A DNA stretch of 32,340 nt, taken from contig JAADJA010000044.1 of NCBI GenBank assembly GCA_013151015.1, positions 65,417 to 97,756 of the forward strand, written 5' to 3'. Below are positions 2,078 to 31,927 of this stretch, piece by piece. Numbering within the stretch: position 1 is the stretch's first letter; every line of letters begins with the position of its first letter. The stretch comes from Chlorobiota bacterium. GTDB lineage: Bacteria; Bacteroidota; Bacteroidia; Bacteroidales; JAADJA01. The position numbers were made by a program, and so were the translations under genes. Below the pieces are notes generated by a model. The model worked only from the letters and a program-made list of their open reading frames with translations, had not been told where the DNA came from and did no database searches.

Positions 2078-2593
2078 ATGGATTTGAAACAAGCGGCAAG
2101 GAATATCCTTGAAGATGTAATACTTTACTTACAACAACTGGACGACGTACGCTACAAGCAGCAGCTGGAAGTATTTTCGGGATCGAGCGTGGGAATGCAC
2201 ACCCGGCATATTATCGAATTTTACCAATGCCTGATAGACCACGGCACCTCGCGCATCATCAATTACGACAAGCGCGAGCGCAACCGTGCCATCGAGGAAG
2301 ATACAAGCCACACCATTAGTGTGATCCACGATTTACTGGAAAAACTGGCCCACATCAACGAAGATGACAAACTCATCCTGGAAGTGAGCTACGAATTGGA
2401 AAACGGGGGATATAGCCTGGTGGACACCAATTTCAAAAGAGAGTTGGTGTATAACCTGGAGCATACCATCCATCACCTTGCCCTCGTTAAAATCGGCTTA
2501 AAAGAAATTGCACCTGAAATATTATTGCCGGCACACTTTGGTGTGGCACCATCAACCATCAAGTTTAAGAAACAGTTTGTAAAAAACCTGTAA
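2078..2593 (+). CDS. DinB-like four-helix metal-site protein
   Basis: This is a 171-residue protein of the DinB/YfiT-like superfamily, a helical bundle with a three-His divalent-metal site. The expected histidines are visible: GMHTRHIIEFY (His41/His44) and LEHTIHHLALVK (His129, His132, His133). Members include thiol-dependent transferases and many proteins without a known reaction, so the substrate is unknown. It has no signal peptide and is presumably cytoplasmic. It has its own promoter at 2006-2038. Its stop codon lies inside the 5' arm of a repeat hairpin (2584-2630), so the repeat probably also forms the transcript end. Confidence 0.75.
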   Translation: MDLKQAARNILEDVILYLQQLDDVRYKQQLEVFSGSSVGMHTRHIIEFYQCLIDHGTSRIINYDKRERNRAIEEDTSHTISVIHDLLEKLAHINEDDKLILEVSYELENGGYSLVDTNFKRELVYNLEHTIHHLALVKIGLKEIAPEILLPAHFGVAPSTIKFKKQFVKNL

Positions 2594-2739
2594 GGTTGAA
2601 GCAGGCCTGAGCATGGGCGACCTGACAGGTTGAAGAAAAAAGAGTAGGCAGTTGACAATTAGCAAAACCTTTTAGGTCGGAAAAAGCCCACGGGAAGGAG
2701 ACCTGACAGGTTGAAGAAAAAAGAGTAGGCAGTTGACAA
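2584..2739 (+). repeat. Tandem dimer of an 82-bp hairpin repeat (family 1)
   Basis: There are two hairpins. The first has arms AACCTGTAAGGT (2584-2595) and ACCTGACAGGTT (2619-2630). The second has arms AACCTTTTAGGTC (2666-2678) and GACCTGACAGGTT (2700-2712). A 40-bp stretch starting with GACCTGACAGG is identical at 2618-2657 and 2700-2739, a period of exactly 82 bp. The loop of the first copy begins GAAGCAGGCC, the family signature. Related copies lie at 4555, 11436 (inverted) and 31649. Confidence 0.85.
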
Positions 2740-2767: not shown

Positions 2768-3508
2768 ATGTGTACAGTAACATACATACCACAATCCGAA
2801 GATGCCTTCATCCTCACCCACAGCAGGGACGAGAAAGTGTTGCGCGGTATTGCTTCCCCGCCGGTTATCAGGAAGATAAACGGAATCAAACATATTTTCC
2901 CGGTTGACCCGAAAGGTGGTGGAACATGGATCGGTGTTGGCGAAAACAACCGGATTGCCTGTTTGTTGAATGGCGGGACGAACAAACACATTCCCCATCC
3001 GCCTTATCACCATAGCCGCGGGTTGATCATCCCTGATTTGTTCAGTTATGATTCCTTTAGCTCGTTCTATAATAATTATTCATTTGAAGGACTGGAACCA
3101 TTTACGTTGATTGTTATGGAAGAAAACCAGGTATTTGAACTGCGCCTTGAAGAAAAAATCCTACGGATAAAAGAACTCGATAGGAATATCCCGCACATTT
3201 ATTCTTCGGCAACGCTTTATTCGCCGGAAGTTGCGCACGACAGGAAACTGGAATTCCATGAATGGCTGAAGGCACAGCAAAGATTTACACAACATGAATT
3301 GCTCAAATTACATTCAAGGTTCCGTTACGAATTATTGAACACCGAAAAACCGGTTGACAACCACTCGATCCTGAAAACGGTAAGCACCACTTCGATCATG
3401 AAAAACAAGACCAATGCCGAGGTGTTGTATTTCGACCGTGTGAACGATATGCAGCTCATCCGGAACCTAAAACTCAAAAACATCTACAAACTCGAAAATG
3501 CGTCCTGA
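2768..3508 (+). CDS. NRDE/TANGO2-family Ntn-hydrolase-like protein
   Basis: This is a 246-residue protein of the NRDE (TANGO2-like) family. The ATG at 2768 is chosen over upstream in-frame starts because it places Cys at position 2 (MCTVTYIP), the expected N-terminal nucleophile of this family. The second signature, HSRDE, follows about 20 residues in and corresponds to the NRDE motif. PKGGGTWIGV and ACLLNGG are typical of the fold. Bacterial members have no firmly assigned reaction; the eukaryotic homologue is linked to lipid or heme metabolism. The 3' end overlaps the ATP-grasp gene by 11 bp, which indicates translational coupling and a shared pathway. Confidence 0.8.
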   Translation: MCTVTYIPQSEDAFILTHSRDEKVLRGIASPPVIRKINGIKHIFPVDPKGGGTWIGVGENNRIACLLNGGTNKHIPHPPYHHSRGLIIPDLFSYDSFSSFYNNYSFEGLEPFTLIVMEENQVFELRLEEKILRIKELDRNIPHIYSSATLYSPEVAHDRKLEFHEWLKAQQRFTQHELLKLHSRFRYELLNTEKPVDNHSILKTVSTTSIMKNKTNAEVLYFDRVNDMQLIRNLKLKNIYKLENAS

Positions 3509-4544
3509 TTTCAAAAACAAAGCTTTTTTCATAAAACTTTCCAATTGGGAATACTGGCCTTTTTACCTTGTATATATTCCGATATTCCTCTATTGGGTTT
3601 ACCTTGGGATAAAAGCCCGTTCGGTATTGTTTTTCAGTGCCGCCAACCCGGCGATCGAAAGCGGTGGGATGTTGGGCGAATCGAAATTCAATATCCTTGA
3701 AATGCTACCGGGCGAATTTAAACCGAAGACTATTTTTATCCATAAAGATTATTCGGAAGGGAAAATCCTTCAACTCATAAAGGCCAACGGGATAAATTTC
3801 CCCTTGATCGCAAAACCCGATATTGGCGAAAGGGGCTGGATGGTCGAAAAGCTTGACAATCCCGAACAATTGAAAAAATATATCAATGATGCCTATTTCC
3901 ATTTTATCATCCAGGATTTCATTGCGCACCCACTTGAATTTGCGATAATGTATTACCGCTATCCGGAGGAGGGGAAAGGAATCGTGAATTCGGTTACGAT
4001 AAAGGAATTCCTTTCGGTAACGGGAGACGGGAAATCAACCGTAAAAGAACTGTTGAACAAGAACCCAAGGGCAATTTTACAAATCCCGGTGCTGAATGAT
4101 GTGTTGGGCAGTGAATTAAACAATGTAGTAAAGAAAGGTGAAAAACGGGAACTGATGCCTATCGGAAACCATTGCCGCGGAACAAAATTCATCAACGGGA
4201 ACCATTTGATCGATACAAAATTGATGGAAGCATTTGATGATATCAACAAAACAACTCCCGGGATTTTCTTTTGCCGTTACGATTTGAAATGCACAAGCAT
4301 TGAGGATTTGAAAAACGGGAAAAACATAAAGATCATGGAGATAAACGGTGTGGGTTCGGAACCGGCGCATATTTACGATCCGGGCTTTAAACTGATGGAT
4401 GCCTACAAAGCACTTTTCAATCAATGGAAGACGATTTATGAAATCAGTCGCATCAACCGCAAAAAAGGGATTACATACATGACCGTGAAAGAGGCCACAC
4501 AAACAATCCGGTTTTTATTGAATTATAAAAAGAAGGCAGCTTAG
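3498..4544 (+). CDS. ATP-grasp ligase-like protein with N-terminal membrane segment
   Basis: This is a 348-residue protein with the C-terminal layout of ATP-grasp carboxylate-amine ligases (D-Ala-D-Ala ligase clan). FPLIAKPDIGERG is the ATP-binding lysine strand. FIIQDFI is the hinge. IMEINGVGSEPAHIYDPG carries the Mg-binding Glu and Asn. Residues ~18-40 (YWPFYLVYIPIFLYWVYLG) are strongly hydrophobic, so the enzyme is probably tethered to the inner membrane, which is unusual for soluble ligases. The start codon lies inside the end of the NRDE gene (11-bp overlap). The substrates are unknown. It should join a carboxylate to an amine or similar nucleophile using ATP. Confidence 0.72.
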   Translation: MRPDFKNKAFFIKLSNWEYWPFYLVYIPIFLYWVYLGIKARSVLFFSAANPAIESGGMLGESKFNILEMLPGEFKPKTIFIHKDYSEGKILQLIKANGINFPLIAKPDIGERGWMVEKLDNPEQLKKYINDAYFHFIIQDFIAHPLEFAIMYYRYPEEGKGIVNSVTIKEFLSVTGDGKSTVKELLNKNPRAILQIPVLNDVLGSELNNVVKKGEKRELMPIGNHCRGTKFINGNHLIDTKLMEAFDDINKTTPGIFFCRYDLKCTSIEDLKNGKNIKIMEINGVGSEPAHIYDPGFKLMDAYKALFNQWKTIYEISRINRKKGITYMTVKEATQTIRFLLNYKKKAA

Positions 4545-4554
4545 GGGGAGAAGA

Positions 4555-4612
4555 AACCTGTTGTGTCGAAGAAGGACATTGGGTTAGGGGACACGACAGG
4601 TTGAAAATATCA
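4555..4612 (+). repeat. Family 1 hairpin, stem-variant copy
   Basis: The arms are AACCTGTTGTGTC (4555-4567) and GACACGACAGGTT (4600-4612). They pair over all 13 positions if one G-U is allowed. The loop again begins with GAAG. The middle of the stem differs from the other copies on both arms together (GTGTC/GACAC against GGGTC/GACCC), which is compensatory change. It lies 11 bp after the ATP-grasp stop codon and is followed by a CAGTTGGCAA tail as in the other copies. Confidence 0.75.
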
Positions 4613-4657
4613 ATTAATAAAACAGTTGGCAAGAAGCATTCAAAAAAAGCAATGTAA

Positions 4658-4698
4658 ACCTGACTCTTTCAGGTCGTTCCGATACTGAAAGGTCAGGT
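4658..4698 (+). repeat. Long hairpin just upstream of the LysE-type gene
   Basis: The arms ACCTGACTCTTTCAG (4658-4672) and CTGAAAGGTCAGGT (4685-4698) pair with a single bulged T around a 12-nt loop. It ends 14 bp before the next start codon. It could be a terminator for the upstream operon, an mRNA leader structure or another dispersed repeat. No U-tract follows. Confidence 0.6.
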
Positions 4699-4712
4699 CA
4701 AAAACAATCTAA

Positions 4713-6499: not shown

Positions 6500-6896
6500 G
6501 CTAAATTTATTAAGTATGAAAAAGAAACAGCAAGGGACAGGATTTGTTTTCTTTTAGTGGCAATAAACATGATTGGATACTTGATATGAAACTTTTACTA
6601 TCGCCCGTACAGAATTTTTTTCATTTTTCCCTAATGTTAAATACCAAGAAGACAGTTTGCAATATGCAAACTCCCTGCTTGCCAATTGCCTACTTTGGTT
6701 TTTTCAGCATTTCGCATATCAGCTCTTTATCAATAGTTCGGTAAATAATTATAATGTATTGATTGCAATGTATTTGTAGCCTGAAAGGCATTTTATCATA
6801 TTGCTGTACATCAATACGTTGCGTTCTTTGTGGTGTTGCGCGAGAAAAAATTACCGAAGTATTGTTTTTCATAATGCCCTTAAAATAGGCAGGTTC
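6500..6896. other. Non-coding interval with small inverted and short repeats
   Basis: This ~400-bp space separates two minus-strand genes. It holds the perfect stem GTTTGCA/TGCAAAC at 6655-6671 and a TTGCCAATTGCCTAC motif near 6678-6693, the reverse complement of the GGCAATTGG-type short repeats at 31.6 kb. It also holds a stretch near 6815-6845 resembling CGCAACACCACAAAGAACGC-type Bacteroidota intergenic repeats on the minus strand. A 60-codon open frame on the minus strand (6690-6872) overlaps this repeat and is not believed. Confidence 0.5.
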
Positions 6897-11311: not shown

Positions 11312-11313
11312 TT

Positions 11314-11357
11314 GGCGCAAGTCTGACGGGGAGCATTGCAGGTAAGGGACTTGTGCC
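11314..11357 (-). repeat. 44-bp palindromic repeat (family 3) at the IS break
   Basis: The arms GGCGCAAGTC (11314-11323) and GACTTGTGCC (11348-11357) pair with one mismatch. Read on the minus strand it matches the element at 31828-31870, whose arms are GGCACAAGTC and GACTTGCGCC. At both loci a family 1 hairpin precedes it. Confidence 0.7.
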
Positions 11358-11435
11358 TTGCTTTGTGGCAGTTACTTCGTTTTGTCCCTCCCCCTATGTT
11401 CAAGATTTGCAATCCGGTTACCGCTTATTTCCCTC

Positions 11436-11482
11436 AACCTTCCGGGTCGCCACCACTTTGGCCTGCTTCGACCCAAAAGGTT
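11436..11482 (-). repeat. Family 1 hairpin repeat, inverted copy
   Basis: On the minus strand the arms are AACCTTTTGGGTC and GACCCGGAAGGTT, with a loop beginning GAAGCAGGCC. They are identical to the arms of the second copy at 31731. The rest of 11358-11719 has no gene that I can support. The open frames on the plus strand run through this repeat. A possible -7 box TAGGTTTG is at 11620-11627. Confidence 0.8.
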
Positions 11483-11719
11483 TGGATTGCCCTTCCGCCA
11501 AATGTTAAGGATTTCCGAATCTCAAACCATTATTTTAAGGGGCTGCAATCCGCTTTCCCTAAAAACCTTTATCTTTACCCAACAAAACAAATAGTTTTTT
11601 AAACTGGTACGCAAATCAATAGGTTTGCATTGCACATAGTGTAGCCGGGAGACTACTTTTAGAGGGAACTCATATTGCATATCAAGCTTGAAACCTAAAA
11701 TCAATTAAAATCAAACAAC

Positions 11720-30972: not shown

Positions 30973-31596
30973 ATGAAGAATCTACCAGACAAAACAGTCG
31001 AAAGGCTTTGCCAATACCGAAGAAGCCTGAACAACCAATTGGCAGCCGGGAAAACCCATATATTCTCCCACGAAATTGCCAACCTCTTACATATTACTTC
31101 TGTACAAGTACGCCGCGACATTATGCTCATTGGCCATAGCGGCACGCTCCGCAAAGGATACGACATCAAAGAGATGGTAAAGCTTATCGGCAAGATCATC
31201 GACACGAAAGAAGGGCAAAGGATAGCTGTTATCGGCATGGGGAACATCGGGAAAGCCTTTATCCATTATTTATACGAAAAAAGGTCGAAACTGAAAGTGG
31301 TGGCCTCTTTTGATGTGAACCCCGATAAAATCGACAAAACCTATGCAGATGTTTATTGCTACCACCTTGACCGGCTAAAGGAAATAATCCAGAAAGAAGA
31401 TATTAAAATCGGTATTATCACCACCCCTCCCATGGTCGCCCCGGAAGTTTGCGAAAACCTTGTGACCGCAGGCATTAAAGGGATACTGAATTTCACGCCT
31501 AAACCATTGAGCGTCCCCGATGAAGTCTATTTGGAAGAATATGACATGATCACTTCATTGGAGAAAGTTGCTTTTTTTGTGAAGCATAATGAGTAG
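30973..31596 (+). CDS. rex: Redox-sensing transcriptional repressor Rex
   Basis: This is a 207-residue NADH/NAD sensor. The winged-helix domain (about 1-80) has VERLCQYRRSLNNQLAAGK and HITSVQVRRDIMLIGHSG. The Rossmann domain has the dinucleotide motif IAVIGMGNIGKAF (residues 84-96). GIITTPPMVAPEVCENLVTA and KGILNFTPKPLSVPDEVYLE complete the family pattern. When NADH is high Rex leaves DNA and frees genes of fermentation and anaerobic respiration. The two operator-like palindromes around its own promoter indicate autoregulation. Both the DNA-binding arginines (QVRRD) and the GxGxxG are present, so it should be functional. Confidence 0.95.
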   Translation: MKNLPDKTVERLCQYRRSLNNQLAAGKTHIFSHEIANLLHITSVQVRRDIMLIGHSGTLRKGYDIKEMVKLIGKIIDTKEGQRIAVIGMGNIGKAFIHYLYEKRSKLKVVASFDVNPDKIDKTYADVYCYHLDRLKEIIQKEDIKIGIITTPPMVAPEVCENLVTAGIKGILNFTPKPLSVPDEVYLEEYDMITSLEKVAFFVKHNE

Positions 31597-31614: not shown

Positions 31615-31641
31615 GCAGTAGGCAATTGGCAGTAGGCAATT
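31615..31641 (+). repeat. Short tandem repeat GCAGTAGGCAATT
   Basis: GCAGTAGGCAATT occurs at 31615-31627 and 31629-31641 (14-bp period). It belongs to the GGCAGTTGGCAATAGG-like spacer sequences that flank family 1 hairpins. Confidence 0.6.
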
Positions 31642-31648
31642 TTGCAAA

Positions 31649-31777
31649 AATCTTTTGGGTCGAAGCAAGCCTGCGGGATGGAGACCCGGAAGGTTGAAAA
31701 AGTAACAAATTGGAATAGGCGGTTGACGAAAACCTTTTGGGTCGAAGCAAGCCTGCGAGGAGGAGACCCGGAAGGTT
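31649..31777 (+). repeat. Tandem dimer of the 82-bp hairpin repeat (family 1)
   Basis: The first hairpin has arms AATCTTTTGGGTC (31649-31661) and GACCCGGAAGGTT (31683-31695). The second has AACCTTTTGGGTC (31731-31743) and GACCCGGAAGGTT (31765-31777). All mismatches are G-U type. The period is exactly 82 bp, as in the dimer at 2584. The loops begin GAAGCAAGCCTGCG. Confidence 0.88.
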
Positions 31778-31827
31778 GAAAAAGTGACGAATTGGAATAG
31801 GCAGTTGATGGAAAAAACAAGGAGTAC

Positions 31828-31870
31828 GGCACAAGTCCCTGCCTTTAGTACTATCCTTCAGACTTGCGCC
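31828..31870 (+). repeat. 43-bp palindromic repeat (family 3)
   Basis: GGCACAAGTC (31828-31837) and GACTTGCGCC (31861-31870) pair with one mismatch. This is the same element as at 11314-11357, here also placed after family 1 hairpins. Confidence 0.7.
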
Positions 31871-31927
31871 ATATGAAAGTCAATGTTAGTATCGTGGTTT
31901 ATAATTACGAATAAACATTACTATATT

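Follow-up and report, generated by a model that had tools for sequence, protein, structure and literature searches.

The hallmarks of REPs and REPINs are inverted doublets, linkage to a RAYT (a REP-associated HUH/tyrosine transposase, or TnpA-REP), complementary variation within the stem and location downstream of genes (PMC3116915, PMC3733652). Many REPs of E. coli lie no more than 15 nt from a stop codon (PMC12306157 and a study cited there). In the Bacteroidetes, the subclass 2.6 TnpA-REPs are accompanied by 'atypical' REPs, and no REP-like sequences were found beside genes of subclass 2.1 (PMC6006769). Here we describe a hairpin family from a Bacteroidales genome that is a REP in the broad sense, and is neither a GTAG nor a CGTC REP. 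Our main reading, to which we give a probability of roughly 0.87, is that the hairpin is the REP of a REPtron that was multiplied by a divergent RAYT, was orphaned in the genome studied here and persists there behind stop codons.

The stretch of DNA that we analysed (the window, 32,340 nt) contains six copies of one hairpin: two tandem pairs, one single copy and one inverted copy. Each copy scored 61-77 bits against a covariance model that was trained on window copies too, so these scores establish positions, not independence. All six copies fold better than their dinucleotide shuffles (z of -2.3 to -5.8); for five of them at most 1 of 200 shuffles folded equally well, and for the sixth 4 of 200 did. 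The first pair lies on the plus strand at 2581-2636 (63.7 bits) and 2662-2717 (60.9 bits), and the TAA stop codon (2591-2593) of the ORF at 2078-2593 falls inside the 5' arm of its first copy. In an alignment with the sister genome, G016, this site carries one copy against two in the window's own genome (G000), which makes the dimer a local copy-number change. The single copy at 4551-4607 (plus strand, 62.2 bits) has a GTGTC/GACAC stem and lies about 10 nt 3' of the stop codon of the ORF at 3498-4544. A 172-bp stretch comprising this copy and a second palindrome (4541-4712; palindrome at about 4658-4700) is missing in G016, where the flanking genes overlap as ATGA; the gene upstream of this indel was found in no third genome of the genus. 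The inverted copy is at 11431-11486 on the minus strand (69.7 bits). The second pair, on the plus strand behind the ORF at 30973-31596, occupies 31645-31700 (71.7 bits) and 31727-31782 (77.1 bits). In the latter, the best copy, fold and pair counts place the 5' arm, AACCTTTTGGGTC, at 31731-31743; column counts over 111 copies place the 21-nt loop at 31744-31764; and column information and counts place the 3' arm, GACCCGGAAGGTT, at 31765-31777, followed by a conserved unpaired GAAAA. The initial annotation had located hairpins at these sites, correctly, and had assigned both pairs an exact 82-bp period, which holds for the second pair; the first has an offset of 81. Another interspersed palindrome-like repeat, GGCGCAAGTCTGA...GGACTTGTGCC, occurs near hairpin copies at 11313-11347 and 31837-31871 of the window, and also at the start of an extra stretch beside L244:8327; it is possibly the REP of another RAYT.

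We searched the 4.3-Mb draft genome with the covariance model, built from 41 copies, and obtained 137 matches (121 at E<0.001), a lower bound because 150 candidates were scored. One unit of the family spans about 56 nt and consists of a 13-bp stem, a conserved 21-nt loop and a 3' GAAAA. Conservation extends from an A-run before the stem to the GAAAA after it, and the flanks share almost no information; hence the 82-bp unit and the AGTAGGCAGTTGACAA-like tail, both of which had been counted as part of the element, are local features. Across the family, information drops to about zero after GAAAA. Same-strand neighbouring copies are 57-147 bp apart genome-wide, with spacings of 81-83 at six junctions, which does not support an exact 82-bp unit as part of the element. 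The AGTAGGCA-like sequence belongs to a simple repeat distinct from the family, and a AGTAGGCAATTGGC-like simple repeat apart from the hairpin, at 6681-6694 (minus strand), 31617-31630 (plus strand) and 2643-2656 (plus strand) of the window, accounts for the supposed tail. The loop consensus is GAAGNNRGCCNGTGCGNNGGN, with G18, G21, G25 and G37 shared by 102 or more of 111 copies, and the GAAG start proposed for the loop is found in most copies. Singlets, tail-to-tail pairs and tandem pairs predominate in G000 and G016. The family also forms arrays, one with 13 copies in about 2.1 kb. A literature search with the stem sequences gave chance matches only. By eye, an integron attC site was considered and rejected, as the paired ends stop short of the GTTGAAA tail.

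The two arms of the stem vary together (AGGT/ACCT, GGGTC/GACCC and GTGTC/GACAC), as the initial annotation had suggested. The 13 stem pairs are 94.9% paired, and two-sided changes number 31 versus 7.7 in shuffles, although the copies are related by descent and the shuffle control is therefore not a strict probability. The signal disappeared when the partner column was slid as a control, and the four most strongly coupled column pairs are all stem pairs. The proposal that remaining mismatches are mostly G-U also stood: non-Watson-Crick stem cells on the plus strand comprise 142 T.G versus 15 C.A. The plus strand folds at -18.7 kcal/mol versus -13.9 for the minus strand, and in 153 of 167 copies it is the strand with the more stable fold. 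Together, the T.G excess and the greater stability place the function in the plus strand, at the level of either RNA or single-stranded DNA. G000 and G016 are about 89-98% identical over long blocks, and in 12 gap-free pairs of orthologous copies differences affect 6.4% of stem sites and 21% of loop sites; divergence is 7.4% in the upstream and 14% in the downstream flank. Loops thus diverge faster than downstream flanks between these genomes, despite several G positions that are conserved genome-wide. Stem changes between orthologues were mostly one-sided and unpaired (13, versus 2 two-sided), so selection on pairing is weak at that time scale; compensation is visible among old copies, not at the short G000-G016 range.

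Within the genus, 11 of 17 genomes carry the hairpin and six lack it. Across the order its distribution is patchy: 9 of 393 genomes were positive, three of them from the genus, and a few other families carry copies, although some matches outside the genus are short simple palindromes and not the hairpin. Named matches are Bacteroidales/Bacteroidetes MAGs. A simple relative of the hairpin may exist in other Bacteroidales, where short-loop palindromes of the form AACCTGTCAGGTT-N5-AACCTGACAGGTT lie at L295:2522-2560, L297:2332-2370 and L299:2222-2262. Abutting inverted heterodimers of two subtypes, A and B, are found in G001, G013 and G129. No clean insertion of a single hairpin was seen between G000 and G016; the clear indels carried more than the hairpin or left a remnant. 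Viral contigs gave no pattern match, and plasmids no match either.

In four genomes of the genus, the hairpins flank an HUH/tyrosine transposase of about 207 aa, often as inverted heterodimers (G001 C536 and C553, G008 C83, G015 C141 and C305, and G003 C102). This divergent RAYT came to light when the ORFs within a hairpin array were read: a 208-aa ORF on G001 contig 536 is surrounded by alternating hairpins. On G008 C83 the gene is separated from the nearest hairpin matches by about 35 bp in front of it and about 20 bp behind it. The flanked RAYT matches NCBIfam REP_Tyr_transpos with E=6e-15 and 55 bits (cut-off 80), and the clade and its neighbours score 39-66 bits against NF047646, all under the cut-off of 80. 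In the flanked members scanned, Pfam PF01797 (Y1_Tnp) gave no match or one below cut-off, and among PDB structures TnpA-REP (4er8) alone matched meaningfully. The HUH motif NHxH and the catalytic Tyr motif YxHxNP are invariant in nine aligned sequences. Six of the seven members of a clade with 100/99 support are flanked by the hairpin; the seventh, G011 C66, has palindromes of its own. The stems vary from RAYT to RAYT (AACCTTTCAAG, ACGCCAAG, ACATACCAAG and AACCATTCGGG) and most share the loop GTCGAAG...GCC.GTGCGG, a combination that would follow from every RAYT driving a REP of its own. On plasmids the RAYT has no more than distant relatives, and we found none in viral contigs. We found no hairpin near the six Y1_Tnp matches of the window's own genome, sixteen Y1_Tnp loci of relatives or 20 RAYT loci, most of them of the 2.6 type; taking such loci as evidence against a RAYT was overturned by the divergent flanked RAYT. 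G129, from another family, has hairpin dimers, and its RAYTs are only 31% identical and have no hairpin beside them.

We identified RAYTs of the window's own genome on C165, C46, C77, C225, C195 and C209. No hairpin lies beside those on C165, C46, C225 and C195 in this assembly, which is 94.8% complete, and those on C77 and C209 have no flanking hairpin as judged by position against the genome match list. Nor was a hairpin-flanked RAYT found in G016. With no flanked RAYT in their own assembly, the copies of G000 look orphaned, with the caveat that the draft is incomplete. Other palindromes lie alongside the C165 and C46 RAYTs, and the latter is flanked by a different repeat, ACGCTTCCAGGTCTTGCAGACGCTGGAAGGT (L340:1061-1133 and 1904-2091). 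Subclass-2.6-type RAYTs of the genus are flanked by a further repeat family, GGCGTAGTC...GACTACGCC, often accompanied by an AATCTxxAGATT hairpin, with sites at L148:3080-3110 and 3766-3796, L154:1-110 and 740-830, and L155:650-790.

The position of the copies relative to genes bears on the rival explanations. ORFs for these counts were called by a simple length rule, without a gene finder. About 100 of 111 copies in G000 are intergenic; 81 of the 100 have a same-strand gene upstream (about 49% under random placement), and 44 start within 16 nt of that gene's stop codon (about 5% expected). G016 behaves likewise, with 33 of 43 copies behind a same-strand gene and 22 starting within 16 nt of its stop, and in a small sample of seven other genomes, where dense arrays blur the pattern, 27 of 39 intergenic copies are behind a same-strand gene and 9 within 16 nt. 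The sense bias need not mean function, as a preference in insertion could produce it. A host-encoded 3'-UTR RNA element, a stabiliser of mRNA or a ribosome-stalling hairpin selected at each gene with a secondary RAYT association, would explain the sense orientation, the tight spacing to stop codons, the G.U pairs on the plus strand and the low divergence of orthologous stems (5-6%) against downstream flanks (14%). However, the hairpin is patchy within a genus that includes hairpin-free genomes, it forms dimers and the 13-copy array, its neighbouring genes are of no single kind, and RAYTs are densely flanked by hairpins whose stems differ with the RAYT; we therefore give this explanation only a slim chance. 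A search of recurrent neighbours in G000 for a linked transposase found none.

Intrinsic terminators spread by duplication would also sit directly 3' of stop codons, and one family hairpin of G000 has a short, unrelated hairpin as its counterpart in G016. Yet a single copy out of 167 has at least four T in the 8 nt that follow the sense-strand stem, the tail is a conserved GAAAA, and the antisense strand, somewhat T-rich, has the less stable fold, so that this origin is highly improbable. The suggestion in the initial annotation of a transcript end element is compatible with the sense placement near stop codons, but an intrinsic terminator is an unlikely form of it. Least probable of all is a structured RNA or riboswitch-like family unconnected with mobile DNA, for although the loop is conserved and the stem covaries, no Rfam family matched at gathering score, the hairpin is positioned behind genes and not ahead of them, and it is linked to RAYTs. 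The REP-like mobile hairpin that was proposed alongside the transcript end element is supported by copy number, by inverted dimers and above all by the flanking of RAYT genes in relatives.

The family resembles REP/BIME/REPIN systems with their RAYTs, such as the GTAG REPs (PMC3733652, PMC3116915), in being short, palindromic, extragenic and high-copy, in its inverted doublets (G001, G013 and G129), in complementary stem variation, in flanking an HUH/tyrosine transposase (G001, G003, G008 and G015) and in its frequent location downstream of coding regions. Unlike GTAG and CGTC REPs, it has no GTAG or CGTC tag, and its conserved ends are A-rich at the 5' side and GAAAA at the 3' side. It also differs from those systems in its conserved, purine-rich 21-nt loop, conserved T.G wobbles, GAAAA foot and strong sense orientation, in a divergent RAYT that has the HUH motif and catalytic Tyr but stays under the curated family cut-off, and, in the window's genome, in the prevalence of singlets and lack of a flanked RAYT. 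Subclass 2.6 is similar in phylum and in RAYTs flanked by non-GTAG secondary structures (PMC6006769), but in this genus the RAYTs that resemble 2.6 (YIH[QN]NP, about 180 aa) fall into a clade of their own, and those inspected in G000 and G016 have the different repeat GGCGTAGTC...GACTACGCC. Judged by its description, the flanked RAYT resembles the table entry for subclass 2.1 TnpA/TIRYT (PMC6006769) in its NHFH motif, length of about 200-240 aa and YIHxNP-like Tyr motif; unlike that subclass, its gene is flanked by hairpin dimers.

Returning to the reading of the hairpin as the REP of a REPtron, we propose that the unit of about 56 nt would have been multiplied as a non-autonomous element by the divergent RAYT, probably as inverted A/B dimers. 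What the RAYT binds is most likely single-stranded DNA, the plus strand in its folded state, of which it would read the stem with its T.G pairs, the purine-rich loop and the GAAAA foot. The RAYT next to such hairpins was presumably lost from the window's genome or is unassembled there, leaving orphaned copies that persist mostly just 3' of stop codons in the sense orientation, where the same fold would form in the mRNA 3' UTR and may hold up ribosomes at termination or stop exonucleases, effects reported for E. coli REPs. Weighing against this reading are the lack of a flanked RAYT in G000 and G016, the hairpin-free RAYTs of G129, the NCBIfam score under its cut-off, the lack of a clean single-hairpin insertion, the one-sided stem changes between orthologues and a sense bias that insertion preference could explain. 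A bolder extension, which we regard as unlikely, is that a RAYT clade that current models recognise poorly has spread a tagless REP with a plus-strand fold that also works in mRNA, with more than 100 copies kept directly behind stops as a genome-wide layer of control over translation termination or mRNA stability and a protein, which might be the RAYT, binding the loop.

The link between an untagged, loop-conserved repeat and a RAYT clade almost missed by Pfam Y1_Tnp suggests that the REPtrons of Bacteroidota are under-counted. The different stems at different RAYTs are natural material for studying how a RAYT recognises its own REP, and the strong sense bias next to stop codons opens REP exaptation to testing in a phylum where it has received hardly any study.
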